Source of the DNA: Bacteroidaceae bacterium
GTDB taxonomy: Bacteria; Bacteroidota; Bacteroidia; Bacteroidales; Bacteroidaceae
Assembly: GCA_017458585.1 (NCBI GenBank)
Contig: JAFTAJ010000041.1
Location: forward strand, 1-39,072
Direction: 5' to 3'
Length of the DNA: 39,072 nt
Made by a program: the position numbers and the translations under genes. Within the stretch, counting starts at the first letter, position 1. Each line of letters starts with the position of its first letter. The notes beneath the pieces are model-generated. The model searched no databases. It was not told where the DNA came from and worked only from the letters and a program-made list of their open reading frames with translations. Below, piece after piece: positions 745 to 6,593 of the stretch.

Positions 745-776
745 TTTGCACATATAAGGAAAAAGAATTAATTTTG
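745..776 (+). promoter_or_regulatory. Bacteroidota-type promoter of the retron-like locus
   Basis: TTTG (745-748) is followed after 20 bp by TAATTTTG (769-776), a close match to the Bacteroidota sigma-ABfr -33/-7 pattern TTTG-N19-21-TAnnTTTG. Transcription would begin near 783, giving a leader of about 330 nt before the small ORF at 1113 and about 600 nt before the reverse transcriptase. Confidence 0.7.
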
Positions 777-782
777 CATCCT

Positions 783-1112
783 CGCTCTTTGAAATGGTAA
801 ATAGTTACGCGGTGCTTAGTTCTTGAAGTGAATTTAGTTTCACAACCGAAAAGGTCTTTGGACCCATTAGGACTGCCTTAACTGCTCTCGTTCGAGACTA
901 CCCTCTCGTTCATGGCACTTTGGCAGAAGAGTTGATTCGACAGAAACGACGAGTCGTTTATGGTCATCAATCGATTCAATAGTGTCTTTTTTGCTCAAAG
1001 TTTAATGGACACGGAATAAGGGGGATGGAACAGGAACAGCGCATATAGGACATTGCGTAACGTCGTAATGTAGGACACGGGTTCGACGTTGCCCGATTAA
1101 CGTCCTATATTT
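783..1112 (+). ncRNA. Structured leader, candidate msr-msd RNA of the retron
   Basis: The region between the promoter and the small ORF is non-coding and dense in inverted repeats. Seen are GTGAA/TTCAC (828-843), GGTC/GACC (853-864), TCTC/GAGA (886-897), AAACGAC/GTCGTTT with a 2-nt loop (944-959) enclosed by TTGAT/ATCAA (932-970), GTGTC/GACAC (982-1012), and a long hairpin with ATATAGGAC (1043-1051) pairing GTCCTATAT (1102-1110) around AACGTCG/CGACGTT (1059-1065, 1084-1090). The long hairpin ends 2 nt before the ATG at 1113. Retron reverse transcriptases use a non-coding RNA encoded just upstream, so this is the natural candidate. The a1/a2 stem and the branching guanosine cannot be assigned with confidence, and the exact RNA ends are unknown. 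Confidence 0.5.
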
Positions 1113-1361
1113 ATGTTGAAATTTATTTTTTATCATGAGGAGCAGAGACTAGGTTTCAGGCTCCTTGGCTCAGAGAGCCGTTGTTCCATCTCCAGCAGGA
1201 GAGTTGTTCTTTTAAATAATGGTAAGAAGAAAGGCCGGAAAAGACTCGGTGCAATCTTCAAGAGTTTGTGGAAAACGTTTCGCAAGTGTGTTGAGTTTAT
1301 ACTCGCCCTTGGTTTTATCGCAAAACTTGCATTGTTAATTTTGAACTGGCTCGGCTGGTAA
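1113..1361 (+). CDS. Small basic protein with one membrane helix, retron-associated
   Basis: This 82-codon ORF lies 18 bp before the reverse transcriptase. Its second half is clearly protein-like: a Lys/Arg-rich stretch (KKKGRKRLGAIFKSLWK), an amphipathic segment and a hydrophobic helix near residues 62-82 ending in NWLGW, as in a single-pass or amphipathic membrane peptide. The first half (about residues 9-30) is encoded by three consecutive hairpins (1139-1164, 1167-1179, 1189-1202), so it may be RNA rather than protein. No in-frame ATG exists after 1113, so a shorter protein would need a non-standard start. Position suggests a retron accessory or effector protein; small membrane effectors occur in some retron types. 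No family is recognised. Confidence 0.5.
   Translation: MLKFIFYHEEQRLGFRLLGSESRCSISSRRVVLLNNGKKKGRKRLGAIFKSLWKTFRKCVEFILALGFIAKLALLILNWLGW
1139..1202 (+). other. Three consecutive hairpins inside the small ORF
   Basis: Hairpin 1 is GGAGC (1139-1143) with GCTCC (1160-1164), plus an inner GAGAC/GTTTC stem. Hairpin 2 is GGCTC (1167-1171), loop AGA, GAGCC (1175-1179). Hairpin 3 is TCTCC (1189-1193), loop AGCA, GGAGA (1198-1202). Such a row of short-looped stems resembles the msr part of retron RNAs, but a translational control element is also possible. Confidence 0.5.
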
Positions 1362-1379
1362 CATCCCTACTTATTTTTT

Positions 1380-2249
1380 ATGCTCATTCAGAAAAACGAT
1401 ATATTATGTTCTTACGTTCTGCACAAGAGTGTAGAGCGTGTGAATTATATTATTGAACATCTAAAAGAGTTTTATACGGAGTTCTACCGCTATAAAACAG
1501 ACAAACTTGGAAACAAAAGGCTAAACAAACCACAGTATAAAGAGAAATATGGCGATTTTTGGACAAGGGTCATAAACCCACCAAAAGATGAACTGAAGGA
1601 AATTCAGAAGCGAATCAATAAATACTTGGTTGATAATATTGAGATGCCAGAGTATGCGTTTGGAGGTATCAAATCTCGTGATAATATCCGAAATGCGCGT
1701 TTCCACAAAGGACAGAAATATGTGTTTCAGACGGATCTGAAAGACTTCTTTCCATATATTACCCATAAAAAAGTATATGAAATGTTTGTGAGAGTCGGGT
1801 TCTCGCATGACGTTTCATCAATACTAACAAAGCTAACTACATATAACGGTCATCTCCCTCAAGGTGCGCCAACTTCTACCACTATAGCCAATTTGGTGTT
1901 TATGCCAACAGGAAGGGCTTTACAGGCAATTGCAAGACGTGAAGGCCTGAGATTCACAACATTTGTAGATGACGTGACCATGTCGTCACAAACAGACTTC
2001 AAACACGTAGTGCCAGAGATAATAGAAACAATTACATCCTACGGATTTAAGATTTCCCAAGGGAAGACGACATACAAATCAGGAATTACAGATATAACAG
2101 GAGTAAAGATGCTAAATAACTCTCTGACTGTTACTGATAAGTTTATTGTTGCCATCGAAAAGGAGGTGGATAATTCTTCACCGAGGGCAAAAGGATTATT
2201 AAACTATAAAGAGCGAATAAAGATATTATCAAAGTCAAAAAGTAAATAA
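1380..2249 (+). CDS. Retron-type reverse transcriptase
   Basis: The 289-residue protein carries the retron signature set. NARFH (105-109) matches the retron NAxxH motif. FQTDLKDFF (117-124) is palm motif A with catalytic Asp119. LPQGAPTS (159-166) is motif B, FVDD (195-198) is the YxDD active site with Phe at the first position, and DITG (238-241) corresponds to the retron VTG motif. Family members copy part of a structured RNA into multicopy single-stranded DNA and serve in anti-phage defence with an effector. The QGAPTST form argues against diversity-generating retroelements, which have an SQ motif. The length is a little short for the family, with a Lys/Ser-rich end. The gene is visibly AT-rich compared with the next one, consistent with horizontal transfer. 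Confidence 0.88.
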   Translation: MLIQKNDILCSYVLHKSVERVNYIIEHLKEFYTEFYRYKTDKLGNKRLNKPQYKEKYGDFWTRVINPPKDELKEIQKRINKYLVDNIEMPEYAFGGIKSRDNIRNARFHKGQKYVFQTDLKDFFPYITHKKVYEMFVRVGFSHDVSSILTKLTTYNGHLPQGAPTSTTIANLVFMPTGRALQAIARREGLRFTTFVDDVTMSSQTDFKHVVPEIIETITSYGFKISQGKTTYKSGITDITGVKMLNNSLTVTDKFIVAIEKEVDNSSPRAKGLLNYKERIKILSKSKSK

Positions 2250-2534: not shown

Positions 2535-5500
2535 TTATCTCACGATTACCTTTCTTCCGTTGGCGATATAGATGCCGGCGGGGAAGGCGATAATGTGTAC
2601 GCCCTCTACGGTATCGTTGAAGACACACTGGCCGTCGAGGGTGTAAACTTTCACGGCCTCGCCCTTCTCGAAGGCAAAGCGGATGCCGCCGAGCGTGCCT
2701 TCGATATTAGTGGTCTTGCCCTCGCGTATAGCATTATAGACATGGGTGATGCCGTCGGCCTCTATCACCTCGGTGTCTGCTTCGGCATCGAGGTCAAGAG
2801 TGAAGACGCCAGTGCTCAGACCCCATGCGTCGCCGTCGGGACCAAAGCCTATGCGGCTGAGGTCAATGGCGTGCGAGGTGCGATCTTTCACGCTGCCACC
2901 ATTCTGATTGAAGTTGTAGTAGGCCACGAGGCCGTTCTTATCTACGAGATCCTCGATATCGGTGAGCGGAGCGTTGATCAGCCCCTTCATGGTAGAGAGG
3001 GAGAGAGCCTTACTCCAGATACGCAGTTCGTCAATCTGACCCCGGTAGCCGTTGTCGCCGCCACTCACGAATAGCTTGCCCCAGTCGGTGGTGGAGGTGC
3101 CGATACGCGTGGTGGGACTGGCAAAGAGAACTCCGTCGCGGTAGAACTTCACGGCGCCGAAGGTGTAGCTGACGGCGTAGTGGTGCCAGGTACTGGAGAG
3201 GACAAACCCGTCGCCCGACTTGGCGGTCTTACCACCTACGGTGACCGACATGTTACCATCGTGGTCGGTGGTGATAGCGACCATTTCTTTTTCTGTCGTC
3301 ATATCGAGGGCTCCTTCGCATACGTAGGGCAACATCCACCACTCTATGGTGAAAGCCTTAGTTCCCTCACCAAAGAGATTGATCGTTGACTCCAGCCGTT
3401 CGCTGCCGCTCATAACGAGACCATTCTTGCTGTCGGCGTTGAGCACCATCAGCAGGCCTTGCTCGGTGCGGGAGGTGGTGCCGATGCTGTTACCCGACTC
3501 AAGAGTGATGTCGTAGTAGCCCGGATGTGTGGGAGTGAAAGATGAAGATTGGCCGTTGACTTCATAGTCGTGGATGCCGTTGGTGATGGTCCACTTCCAT
3601 GTTTCGGGATTCTGCAGTGTCTCATCGACGAGGTAGGTAGTCTCGCCGAGCATGATGTTGGGAGGATTGACAGCAAAGGCCACGCGTGGTGCCGAAGGTG
3701 ACACGGTGACATAAAGCGTCTTGCTGCTCTCGCCGCCGCTGTTGCGAGCCGTGAGGGTGATGGGGAACACTCCGGTGCGGCTGTAGGTGACGCCGGCATT
3801 GACGCTGTGTATCTCCTCTTGGTCGGCGCCGGGCGTGCTCCATGTGTAGGTGCAGTTGGAACCGCTCGACTGGTTGGCGAGACAGAAGAGGTCACCCTCT
3901 GCCTGCTCGGTATTGGCTATGGTGAAGTCGGCCACAGGAGCTTCGGGGCTCACCACGGTGACTTCTTGTGTAGCCTCAGCGGTGGTGCCGTCGATGCAGG
4001 TGGCGGTGTGAGTCACTTGGTAGGTGCCTGGTTGCTCAAAGGTTAAGTAGGGAGAGCTGCTGCTGGCGGTAGGCGTGGTGGCCTCGGGTGCTGACCACTG
4101 CCAGTTGACGGTATTGAGCAGAGCGGTGCTCTTGAAGTTGAGCGGCTCGCCGGCATACAGTGTGCCCTGCGGTGCATTGAAGGTGGCGGCATAGGTGGTG
4201 ACGGCACCCTTGAGTATGCTGTCATCGACCTTAGTCTCGCCATCGCTCAGCACCATGTCATAGTTGGAGGCGAGGTCTTTGATGTAGCGCTGGCCGTCGC
4301 GCTCTATTATGGTCATCGGGTAGTAGGCTACGAGGTCGCTATGTGCAGTGGGGCAGGCAACGCTCAGGCTCTTGTTGCGGTAGATGTCAGGCATGGAGCG
4401 GGCTGTGTTCCAGATACGCAGCTCGTCGATCTGGGCATCAAAATTGCGAAGCGAGAAGGTGCTGAGTGCGGGTATGCCGGTGTAGGATTCGGAAACAATA
4501 TTGCCCTTCTTCATTCCGTCGACATAGAGTGTCATCTGGTTGCCGTCGGCCACTATAGCGATGTGATACCAGGTGCCGGCCTTGACGGTGTTGGCTTTGG
4601 TTATGATGCGGTTGTTGGTGTCCCAGCCACACTGTATCTGGCCGGTGGCGGTGATGCAGAAGAACAGCGAACCCCATCCCTCGCCTATCTGCTGGTTGTA
4701 GCCCTTGACGCTGGTGGGCTTGATCCAAAACTCTATTGTGCCTTGTTTGATGCCCTCGCTGAGCAGACCGCTGACGGAGGCAGAGGCATCGCTGAGTTGC
4801 AACACCTGGTTGCTCTCCTCGTTAAACAACTCGCCCTGCTTGCGGCCCGGACTGCTGAGCTTCGACACCAGGCGCCTGTTGCGGTAGCTATATGCGGTGG
4901 CCACATAGTAGGTGGCATCCTCGTTGTCAACAATGTATGAGTGGCTGGTGGCAGGCACCTCGGCAATCTTGTCGGTACCTTTATATACATAGTAGCGTGC
5001 TATCTCATAGCTCGAAGGCATTGGCTCACTCCAGGTGAGACGCTTGCCGTTGAGTGCCACGTTGAGCGGAGCGTATATTTGCTGTCCGATAGTGGTGAGG
5101 GAGAGTAGCGTGGTCTTGCCACCGTTGAGTATTGCCACGGTATCTACGCGGGTTGGTATCTCCATGCCCTCGGTGTCGTTGGTGTAGTCCATGAGCGACA
5201 GGCGATAGACGGTGCCGGAGCCTATGGCTTTGGTCTTGCTATTGATTTGAAGGAAATATTTCACGGGCTTGGTCATATCGAAGGTGGAGGAGAGGTCGGT
5301 AACATCGTAGCCAAACTCCATGGGCTCGTATTTCATCCTTCCCTTCCATTTGCCCAGCATTGGCACTTCGGGCTCAGGCAGGTTGTTTTTATCGGTTTCG
5401 TCTTTCTGCCCATTGCCTGCGTAGTCGAAGAAGGGCATGACCTCGGTCTTGAGTGGCTCAGTGGCAGTGGTATCGGGGTTGATGCCGGCGCTAATGCTTA

Positions 5501-6593
5501 TCTCTGAGCGACGGCTATAGTCCATCACAATCTTCAGTACGCGCTGGGGCTCGTAATCCTTGCGCCAGGTGTAGTGACCTGAGTTCATGGGAAGCTGATC
5601 GGTGCCCATGGCGTAGCTGTACTTGTATGGGCAGTAGATGAAGCCCTGGTTGCACCAGCCGGCGCCCCACGAGTTGCAGATAATCCAGGCGCCCACTTCG
5701 TCCTTGTCAGCCTCGCCGTAAACGCCGTTGCCGTCGAGGTCAAACTCTATGCGGTCGTCATAGCCCACCACGGTGAGCGCGTGGTTGTAGACATCGCCCC
5801 AGGCAGCCACATAATACATGCCAACCACACCGATGGAGCGGTTGGTGGCTGTGTTGGGTATTGTCTGCCAATCGCCGTAGGCTGCCACACCGATACCGCT
5901 GACGCCGCCGCACATAAAACTCTCGTCGCCCCAGTGGTTCCAGAGGTACTGCTTCAGTTGCTCGCGGCCCTCCTCGGTGGTCTGGTCTTGGTCGCAGAAG
6001 GTGTCGCCACCCAGTGTGCGGTTAAACATTGCGGAGTACCACTTGTCGTAGCCTTGCATCCAGCCGTAGTCCTTCTCACTGGTGTCCTGCTGCCCGAAAG
6101 TGTTGCTGTAGGTGCGTCCGCCATATACAGCCACATTGGGCACTCCGTGGCGGTTCATAATCTCATACTTGCCGATGCCACAGTAGGTGTGCAGCCACGT
6201 GAAGTGGGTGGGCAACTGGTTCTCCTCATAGGAGGCATCAGCATCGCGATATGCATTCATTTCAAGATTCATGGTGTAGCCCACTGCTTGGGCTGAGCCA
6301 CATGAACCGCCGCTTTGGTTGATTACGGGTGGAAAGTATTTGGTCAGCGCGTTGTTCAGGTGGTCGGGCCGTTGGTTGCCGTAGCGTGCGCTGCGTGCAC
6401 TACCATTCTGAACTCTTGAACTTTCGAACTCTTGAACTTTTCCTACAGTGTTGCTATAGGTTTTCTCCACCTTGGGAAAAGGATTGGCATCAGGGTATGC
6501 CTGATAGTCCACCTTGATGTCCTGTGCACTCAATGTTCCGCACACCAGCGCGGCAGCGGCTGTCAGTAGCCGGGTCTTAATGTAGAGTTTCAT
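2535..6593 (-). CDS. Secreted papain-like (C1) cysteine protease with LamG and PKD domains
   Basis: The 1352-residue protein begins with a Sec signal peptide (residues 1 to about 23, ending LSAQ). The papain-like domain follows: Gln93 and Cys98 in INQSGGSCGS, His271 in NHALTVVGYDD and Asn307 in ICNSWGAGW form the catalytic set. A Ca-loop-like DLDGNGVYGEADKDE lies between His and Asn. Then come a LamG-like domain (around 630-750), three PKD/Ig-like modules (around 830-1070), a second LamG-like domain (around 1090-1210) and a C-terminal sorting domain of T9SS type (VYTLDGQ, then GIYIANGRKVIVR). The protein is therefore probably exported through T9SS and attached to or released from the surface, degrading host or dietary protein. 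The substrate is unknown. An octamer repeat at 6409-6440 encodes part of the propeptide. Confidence 0.85.
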   Translation of the reverse strand: MKLYIKTRLLTAAAALVCGTLSAQDIKVDYQAYPDANPFPKVEKTYSNTVGKVQEFESSRVQNGSARSARYGNQRPDHLNNALTKYFPPVINQSGGSCGSAQAVGYTMNLEMNAYRDADASYEENQLPTHFTWLHTYCGIGKYEIMNRHGVPNVAVYGGRTYSNTFGQQDTSEKDYGWMQGYDKWYSAMFNRTLGGDTFCDQDQTTEEGREQLKQYLWNHWGDESFMCGGVSGIGVAAYGDWQTIPNTATNRSIGVVGMYYVAAWGDVYNHALTVVGYDDRIEFDLDGNGVYGEADKDEVGAWIICNSWGAGWCNQGFIYCPYKYSYAMGTDQLPMNSGHYTWRKDYEPQRVLKIVMDYSRRSEISISAGINPDTTATEPLKTEVMPFFDYAGNGQKDETDKNNLPEPEVPMLGKWKGRMKYEPMEFGYDVTDLSSTFDMTKPVKYFLQINSKTKAIGSGTVYRLSLMDYTNDTEGMEIPTRVDTVAILNGGKTTLLSLTTIGQQIYAPLNVALNGKRLTWSEPMPSSYEIARYYVYKGTDKIAEVPATSHSYIVDNEDATYYVATAYSYRNRRLVSKLSSPGRKQGELFNEESNQVLQLSDASASVSGLLSEGIKQGTIEFWIKPTSVKGYNQQIGEGWGSLFFCITATGQIQCGWDTNNRIITKANTVKAGTWYHIAIVADGNQMTLYVDGMKKGNIVSESYTGIPALSTFSLRNFDAQIDELRIWNTARSMPDIYRNKSLSVACPTAHSDLVAYYPMTIIERDGQRYIKDLASNYDMVLSDGETKVDDSILKGAVTTYAATFNAPQGTLYAGEPLNFKSTALLNTVNWQWSAPEATTPTASSSSPYLTFEQPGTYQVTHTATCIDGTTAEATQEVTVVSPEAPVADFTIANTEQAEGDLFCLANQSSGSNCTYTWSTPGADQEEIHSVNAGVTYSRTGVFPITLTARNSGGESSKTLYVTVSPSAPRVAFAVNPPNIMLGETTYLVDETLQNPETWKWTITNGIHDYEVNGQSSSFTPTHPGYYDITLESGNSIGTTSRTEQGLLMVLNADSKNGLVMSGSERLESTINLFGEGTKAFTIEWWMLPYVCEGALDMTTEKEMVAITTDHDGNMSVTVGGKTAKSGDGFVLSSTWHHYAVSYTFGAVKFYRDGVLFASPTTRIGTSTTDWGKLFVSGGDNGYRGQIDELRIWSKALSLSTMKGLINAPLTDIEDLVDKNGLVAYYNFNQNGGSVKDRTSHAIDLSRIGFGPDGDAWGLSTGVFTLDLDAEADTEVIEADGITHVYNAIREGKTTNIEGTLGGIRFAFEKGEAVKVYTLDGQCVFNDTVEGVHIIAFPAGIYIANGRKVIVR
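6409..6440. repeat. 8-bp tandem repeat inside the protease gene
   Basis: Four octamers in a row read TGAACTCT, TGAACTTT, CGAACTCT, TGAACTTT on the plus strand. They encode the segment around KVQEFESSRVQ, just after the signal peptide and before the catalytic domain. The 15-mer GAACTCTTGAACTTT is present twice exactly (6410-6424 and 6426-6440). Confidence 0.8.

Follow-up and report, generated by a model that had tools for sequence, protein, structure and literature searches.

Covariation between the msd and the effector mRNA suggests control by nucleic acid pairing in a type VI retron of the Bacteroidaceae

The reverse transcriptase (RT) gene near the start of the window, by which we mean the whole 39,072-nt stretch of Bacteroidaceae DNA analyzed here, raises the question of what kind of element it belongs to and how the small protein (SP) encoded just upstream of it might be controlled. 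Retron RTs are marked by NAxxH (X) and VTG-like (Y) motifs together with a catalytic DD box. The RT open reading frame (ORF) at 1380 to 2249 on the plus strand encodes 289 amino acids and contains NARFH (105 to 109), QGAPTS, FVDD (195 to 198), and ITG (239 to 241), the full motif set that an initial annotation had listed. Among 13 aligned RTs, the N and the A of the X region are kept in 12 each and the H in all 13, the DD is kept in 13 of 13, and the T and G of the VTG-like motif are kept in 12 each. Since the PADLOC profile RT_VI matches the window RT at an E value of 3.7e-71 (next-best retron type, 6.3e-51), the best PDB matches by sequence are structures of retron Ec86 (1.1e-26), and the RT structure model (mean pLDDT, 87.7) has retron RTs as its 18 best Foldseek matches, the system belongs to a known retron type, and the same three lines of evidence rule out a non-retron RT. 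The earlier impression of an unclear type and a possibly new system is therefore superseded, as RT_VI fits far better than any other type. Judged by sequence, the locus is a bacterial anti-phage element of the type VI retron kind, which is known but has been little studied; retron types are reportedly treated in Mestre et al. 2020. When the RT was used as the query against its own genome (92.5% complete), one match was obtained. The AT richness of the locus relative to its neighbors was confirmed, with a G+C content of 0.387 for 745 to 2249 versus 0.466 for 1 to 740 and 0.563 for 2535 to 6593.

A scan of the genome collection with the RT gave 7 loci at 76 to 100% RT identity. Genomes with RT matches numbered 24 of 201 in the family, 3 of 19 in the genus, 47 of 395 in the class, 11 of 393 in the order, and 14 of 395 in the phylum, counts in which the looser E limits take in other retron types. 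The comparative set comprises 31 loci, window included, from the genome searches and three plasmids, each with a nameable SP ORF. Near-copies and duplicates (L001, L002, L004, L036, L069, and refetched copies) were excluded, as were L076 (no SP ORF listed and a stop inside the RT) and L079 and L091 (SP not named); L088 was retained despite one stop in its RT match. Loci L046 to L065, which match RT_VI, were judged from gene layout and size to be other retron types and were not included, the filter having found no RT in several of them. The 28-locus sets omit the near-copies L003, L005, and L085, and a strict set of 19 loci was picked by eye. RT matches were also found in 41 plasmid records, 3 of which are used in the locus set, in 7 phage records, and in viral contigs (71 loci at 22 to 39% identity).

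The features of the locus, in window coordinates, are as follows.

745 to 776, plus strand: Bacteroidota-type promoter, TTTG at 745 to 748 and TAATTTTG at 769 to 776, as judged by the consensus.
784 to 794, plus strand: boxA-like GCTCTTTGAAA, start of the presumed transcript (GYTCTTTGA in 28 of 31 type VI leaders).
804 to 814, plus strand: a1 strand of the noncoding RNA (ncRNA), partner of a2 (permutations and paired changes).
815 to 864, plus strand: msr, with CTTAGTTC (presumed branching-G region), a hairpin at 828 to 843, and a weaker hairpin at 853 to 864, from aligned leaders.
865 to 1050, plus strand: msd, template of the presumed msDNA, placed by its position between msr and a2 and with an approximate 5' boundary.
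982 to 987, plus strand: 5' arm of an msd hairpin, able to pair with copy 1 or copy 2 (pairing permutations).
1007 to 1014, plus strand: copy 1 of a direct repeat (GGACACGG) in the msd, the complement of which the msDNA would carry (repeat search and permutations).
1021 to 1033, plus strand: msd segment antisense to SP codons 23 to 27 (permutation tests and covariation).
1033 to 1041, plus strand: another antisense register, GGAACAGCG, which by inspection can pair with CGTTGTTCC within the same target.
1051 to 1061, plus strand: a2 strand of the ncRNA (covariation with a1).
1073 to 1080, plus strand: copy 2 of the direct repeat (GGACACGG) in the SP 5' untranslated region (5'UTR), followed by a hairpin at about 1078 to 1096 (repeat search and permutations).
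1113 to 1361, plus strand: small effector candidate of 82 amino acids, a diverged SP_VI with a net charge of +13 and a hydrophobic C-terminal stretch (PADLOC, dN/dS, and alignment).
1181 to 1193, plus strand: target of the antisense segment in the small ORF (TTGTTCCATCTCC, codons for an R-C-S-I-S stretch).
1380 to 2249, plus strand: type VI retron RT (RT_VI profile, structure model, and Foldseek).

The small ORF looks coding, as all four relatives compared (L003, L005, L006, and L007) retain its in-frame ATG and its frame, with one 3-nt indel and pairwise dN/dS values of 0.27 to 0.75. An SP start downstream of the antisense target was considered and is not favored, given the ATG at 1113 and the frame kept in these four relatives. 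The hydrophobic C-terminal stretch has a Kyte-Doolittle mean of 2.43 over 19 residues, and this membrane-type ORF, which co-occurs with the RT, is still the natural effector candidate that it was first thought to be. The SP_VI profile matches it weakly (0.0073; 0.0066 for L006), at the same place and with the R-C-S motif, and at best it appears to be a diverged SP_VI. The SP of the sister lineage L074 matches SP_VI at 1.3e-14, and no match up to an E value of 10 was found for the SPs of L009, L038, L066, and L086, none of which has an HTH gene.

The HTH_VI gene is usually regarded as a core part of type VI retrons. It is absent between SP and RT in the window, where 18 nt separate the SP stop from the RT start. 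SP, HTH, and RT are found together in 21 of the 31 type VI loci, and HTH is missing in the other 10 (the window, L003, L005, L006, L007, L009, L038, L086, L087, and L066, the last on Bacteroides uniformis plasmid pBUN2). Placement of the RT among retron types, a check that had been suggested at the outset, gave type VI: in an RT tree of 28 rows, without L090, L067, and L087, the window clade (five rows, no HTH) groups with the HTH-bearing L074 and L078 (support 100/100 and 100/99, the latter in the 28-row tree), and the HTH label changes four times across the tree. The net charge of the SP is +7 to +15 in 9 of the 10 loci lacking HTH (+1 in L087) versus -6 to +5 in the 21 loci with it, and absence of HTH goes with a strongly basic SP on several branches of the RT tree.

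The reading of the locus as a retron with its own Bacteroidota promoter was supported. Of the 31 leaders examined, 28, including that of the window, have the boxA-like motif, and 24 of these have a TAnnTTTG box at most 24 nt upstream of it. The motif itself, GYTCTTTGA, would be expected about 0.005 times per 480 nt; it was not found in the leaders of L067, L086, and L089 among the 31 examined. The genome of the window holds the promoter-boxA pattern four times, the window being one of these, versus two occurrences of a reversed control pattern, and one of the other three matches (L094) lies, by eye, inside protein-coding DNA. No 16S rRNA gene was found in this genome, and one was obtained from 2 of 21 related genomes (L096 and L097, of one genus). 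In L096, GTTCTTTGA is located about 180 nt upstream of the 16S rRNA gene, and the 16S leader of L097 contains only the one-base variant ACTCTTTGA. The motif may act as an antitermination site that helps RNA polymerase to cross the long untranslated leader. The start of the presumed retron transcript thus carries a motif like that in one Bacteroidota 16S rRNA leader, that of L096, which suggests antitermination of a noncoding defense RNA.

The leader is long and structured, as had been noted, with fold z scores of -4.0 for 783 to 1380 and -5.9 for 1010 to 1220. Leader alignment revealed a conserved block of CTTAGTTC and a hairpin directly after a variable stretch, which in the window is 804 to 814. 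In the first msr hairpin, 100% of cells are paired and one pair shows changes in both strands; the second hairpin is weak, being paired in 60.7% of cells. We take the branching G to lie in the CTTAGTTC region, as judged from known retrons, and the ends of the msDNA are likewise putative. The variable stretch finds a partner at 1051 to 1061: among the 28 loci with a recognizable boxA-like 5' end, to which the a1/a2 search was limited, the best helix has at least 7 contiguous pairs in 26, although helix lengths here and in both links described below are best choices within a search range and hence inflated, the permutations being the fair test. In those permutations, none of 50,000 was as good as the own a1/a2 partners in 25 loci, and the same was true in 17 more distant loci; only 16 of 28 loci have their own partner in first rank when seen from at least one side. 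In the seven rows made up of the window clade, L074, and L078, 10 of 33 pairs are changed on both sides versus 3.6 in shuffles and 1 to 4 in slid versions; for a1/a2, this holds for 6 of 11 pairs. We therefore regard the pairing of 804 to 814 with 1051 to 1061 as the a1/a2 stem of a retron and place the ncRNA at about 784 to 1061, with a1, msr, msd, and a2 in this order.

RNAalifold alone does not give the a1/a2 stem and draws the antisense link between msd and ORF in its place. A closed unit at 1021 to 1193, as seen in the minimum-energy fold, was rejected as the ncRNA because the a1/a2 covariation sets the ncRNA at 804 to 1061 and because that fold has this same antisense link as its outer stem. 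The initial annotation had put the leader and the small ORF in the place where retrons carry msr-msd and often an effector. The leader has the a1-msr-msd-a2 layout with covarying a1 and a2; as a correction, the part from a1 to a2 lies wholly upstream of the small ORF, though pairing extends into the ORF. No Rfam family matches 600 to 2500 up to an E value of 1, and the exact msr pattern was found in no stretch of the viral contigs.

Two segments of the msd appear to be tied to the SP mRNA. The first is the segment just upstream of a2 that is complementary to the R-C-S-I-S codons of the SP. A pairing run anchored at these codons reaches at least 8 in 26 of the 31 loci and 6 to 7 bp in the other five (L006, L066, L088, L089, and L090). 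When own partners were compared with those from other loci, none of 50,000 permutations was as good in 28 loci (z, 7.8), nor was any of 50,000 in 19 more distant loci, and a test on RNA-duplex energy agrees (0 of 20,000 in 28 loci). Across the 28 loci, at least two Watson-Crick pair types occur in every one of target columns 1 to 10. Protein conservation alone is insufficient to explain the link, because all four Watson-Crick pair types are found at column 9, which is the third position of a codon, with 1 unpaired locus of 28. A second antisense register to the same codons, like GGAACAGCG, is seen in the window clade and, at the same place, in its neighbors L074 and L078.

The second link is a direct repeat, one copy of which lies in the msd and the other about 40 nt before the small ORF; the msDNA, carrying the complement of copy 1, would therefore be antisense to the 5'UTR, where the sequence recurs as copy 2. 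A repeat of at least 7 nt is present at the corresponding places in 27 of the 31 loci examined, the exceptions being L043, L075, L086, and L089. Its sequence varies among families (GGACACGG, TTTTAGGCACGTG, TGTAACAGG, and TACGGCAGGA), and the copies agree within a locus. Own partners scored 21.5 versus 14.0 for partners from other loci (28 loci; z, 10.1), and none of 50,000 permutations reached the own score in 28 or in 19 loci. Eight shifted comparisons and one complement comparison served as controls and stayed within an absolute z of 1.8 versus 7.8 and 10.1 for the two links, six of the eight shifted controls being slightly positive (z, 0.8 to 1.8), perhaps through composition. By itself, the 8-nt repeat of the window is not significant, as 12.5% of 200 shuffles contained one as long; in the same single-locus test, 10 of the 31 loci were at 5% or less and 21 were above 5%, and one of the 10, L083, has its best repeat at another place. 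We take the case for the repeat to lie in its place and its covariation. The order of copy 1, antisense segment, a2, copy 2, and SP start recurs among loci. The repeats share a GCAGG/GCACGG-like core, and part of their likeness may reflect protein binding. Copy 2 in type VI 5'UTRs is often followed by a GGC...GCC-like hairpin (1078 to 1096 in the window), the stem of which shares the last bases of the repeat.

The potential of the msd and the msDNA to pair with the SP mRNA, and the conservation of this potential, are well supported by the comparisons of sequences, and from them we infer silencing and its direction, the toxicity of the SP, and triggering by phage. Our results lead us to propose, as the probable reading, a toxin-antitoxin arrangement within a type VI retron in which first the ncRNA and then the msDNA would silence the effector mRNA. 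One transcript, with a presumed start at about 783 and the boxA-like motif, would carry the ncRNA, SP, and RT, and the SP would be a small toxin acting on the membrane. Until reverse transcription sets in, the msd RNA would pair with the SP coding region. In retrons, the RT begins its copying at a2 and proceeds into the msd, so that the antisense segment would be the first template copied, followed by copy 1. Synthesis from a2 would thus use up the antisense segment first, and the complement of copy 1 in the resulting DNA could pair with copy 2 upstream of the SP start, in the 5'UTR, thereby blocking translation or drawing RNase H. The SP would be kept off by RNA at first and by DNA afterwards, and a phage that destroys or binds msDNA, or disturbs the RT or RNase H, would allow the SP to be made and the infected cell to be stopped.

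More tentatively, and with slightly more doubt than belief, we suggest the specific form in which the msDNA is a DNA antitoxin, synthesized beside the effector ORF and pairing with the effector 5'UTR, and the prior RNA antisense lock is consumed by DNA synthesis, a two-stage, self-replacing control shared by the type VI retrons of Bacteroidota. In either form of the proposal, the two links could not both act through the msDNA, because the msDNA would carry the sense version of the antisense target. A DNA-RNA pairing of 8 to 13 nt is short, which counts against such silencing, and the antisense target is at codons 23 to 27, away from the start codon, which counts against a simple block of translation.

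A serious rival, even if we consider it unlikely, is a switch made of RNA only, in which the 5' arm of the msd hairpin (982 to 987) alternates between copies 1 and 2, with the antisense segment bound to the small ORF, such that alternative folds would set expression and the msDNA would serve elsewhere, for example in phage sensing. It is serious because several loci have an arm able to pair with the one copy or the other, and the arm does so better than permuted partners for both copies (0 of 20,000 each in 24 loci); moreover, the antisense link contains G-U wobble pairs, as expected of RNA-RNA pairing. The arm effect is, however, weaker (own 13.6 versus 11.4 in 24 loci) than that of the repeat, and the arm pairs with copy 1 by at most 5 bp in 9 of the 27 repeat-bearing loci.

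Rather unlikely in our view is a retron in which the RT-msDNA-ncRNA complex itself binds and silences the SP and the two links serve RNA processing or reverse transcription, for example if access to the start of the msd depended on SP translation. The position of the antisense segment, a few nucleotides from the expected start of reverse transcription, and that of its target, where translating ribosomes would clear it, are in line with such a role, and retrons typically keep their effector in a complex, according to PMC12548924. Sequestration by protein would nevertheless have no need of the links and would leave the covariation of two separate segments with the effector mRNA unexplained.

DRT2 uses repeat motifs for template jumping, and jumping of this kind between the two copies, producing repeated cDNA, would fit direct repeats spaced 59 to 72 nt apart in 25 of 27 loci (81 to 86 nt in the other two) and the spacing of 66 in the window, a multiple of three, yet it is very improbable, since the spacing is not a multiple of three in 17 of the 27 loci, which leaves no repeated reading frame across the family and led us to reject a DRT2-like concatemer gene, and since a2 is found between them, in the position expected of a retron start.

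What surrounds the locus varies among close relatives. Compared with L001 and L003 to L007, the upstream flank of the retron has a full match in L001, partial matches (81 to 243 nt) in L003 to L005, and none in L006 or L007; downstream, L001 is the sole match, over 222 nt. Flanks that differ in this way are as for a mobile or often exchanged cassette. On a Riemerella anatipestifer plasmid (L067), a type VI retron with SP, HTH, and RT is located between two insertion-sequence transposases and near an annotated florfenicol resistance gene.

What is new here are the two links between the msd and the SP mRNA, which suggest that nucleic acid pairing controls the SP. This wiring and the boxA-like motif were not visible to the initial annotation. 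Retron effectors are generally described as being held in a complex of protein, RNA, and DNA, and covariation in type VI ties the template RNA and the presumed cDNA to the effector mRNA. This would give the msDNA a concrete, sequence-specific job, and the mechanism is testable by paired mutations; the links also offer a simple rule by which type VI ncRNAs can be found and aligned. If the proposed mechanism is true, this is a toxin-antitoxin system whose antitoxin is reverse-transcribed DNA. Neither links between msd and SP mRNA nor boxA in retrons were reported in the literature searched, which covered few preprints and subscription journals, so that priority is not established.

Among known systems, the window is most directly compared with type VI retrons (RT_VI, SP_VI, and HTH_VI), with which it shares the RT family, a small protein upstream, and a leader with the msr at its 5' end; a relative of this type, L037, has SP_VI (8.6e-31), HTH_VI (2.3e-29), and the RT. 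In contrast to these, there is no HTH gene in the window retron, whose strongly basic SP is matched only weakly by SP_VI. With retron Ec86 and other solved retrons, it shares the RT fold, these being the best PDB matches by sequence and structure, but the effector is different. DRT2 is likewise a defense RT with a structured ncRNA, as described in PMC12039810, but it belongs to another RT family, and the window-type repeat spacing keeps no common reading frame. Type I toxin-antitoxin systems, as outlined in PMC8309996, resemble the proposed arrangement in the way they would work, though not by membership, in that a small, hydrophobic, basic protein is matched by a nucleic acid antisense to its mRNA. 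Here, however, the antisense agent would be the retron ncRNA and its presumed cDNA, and the antisense segment lies on the same strand as the SP, apparently within the same transcript, rather than having a transcript of its own.
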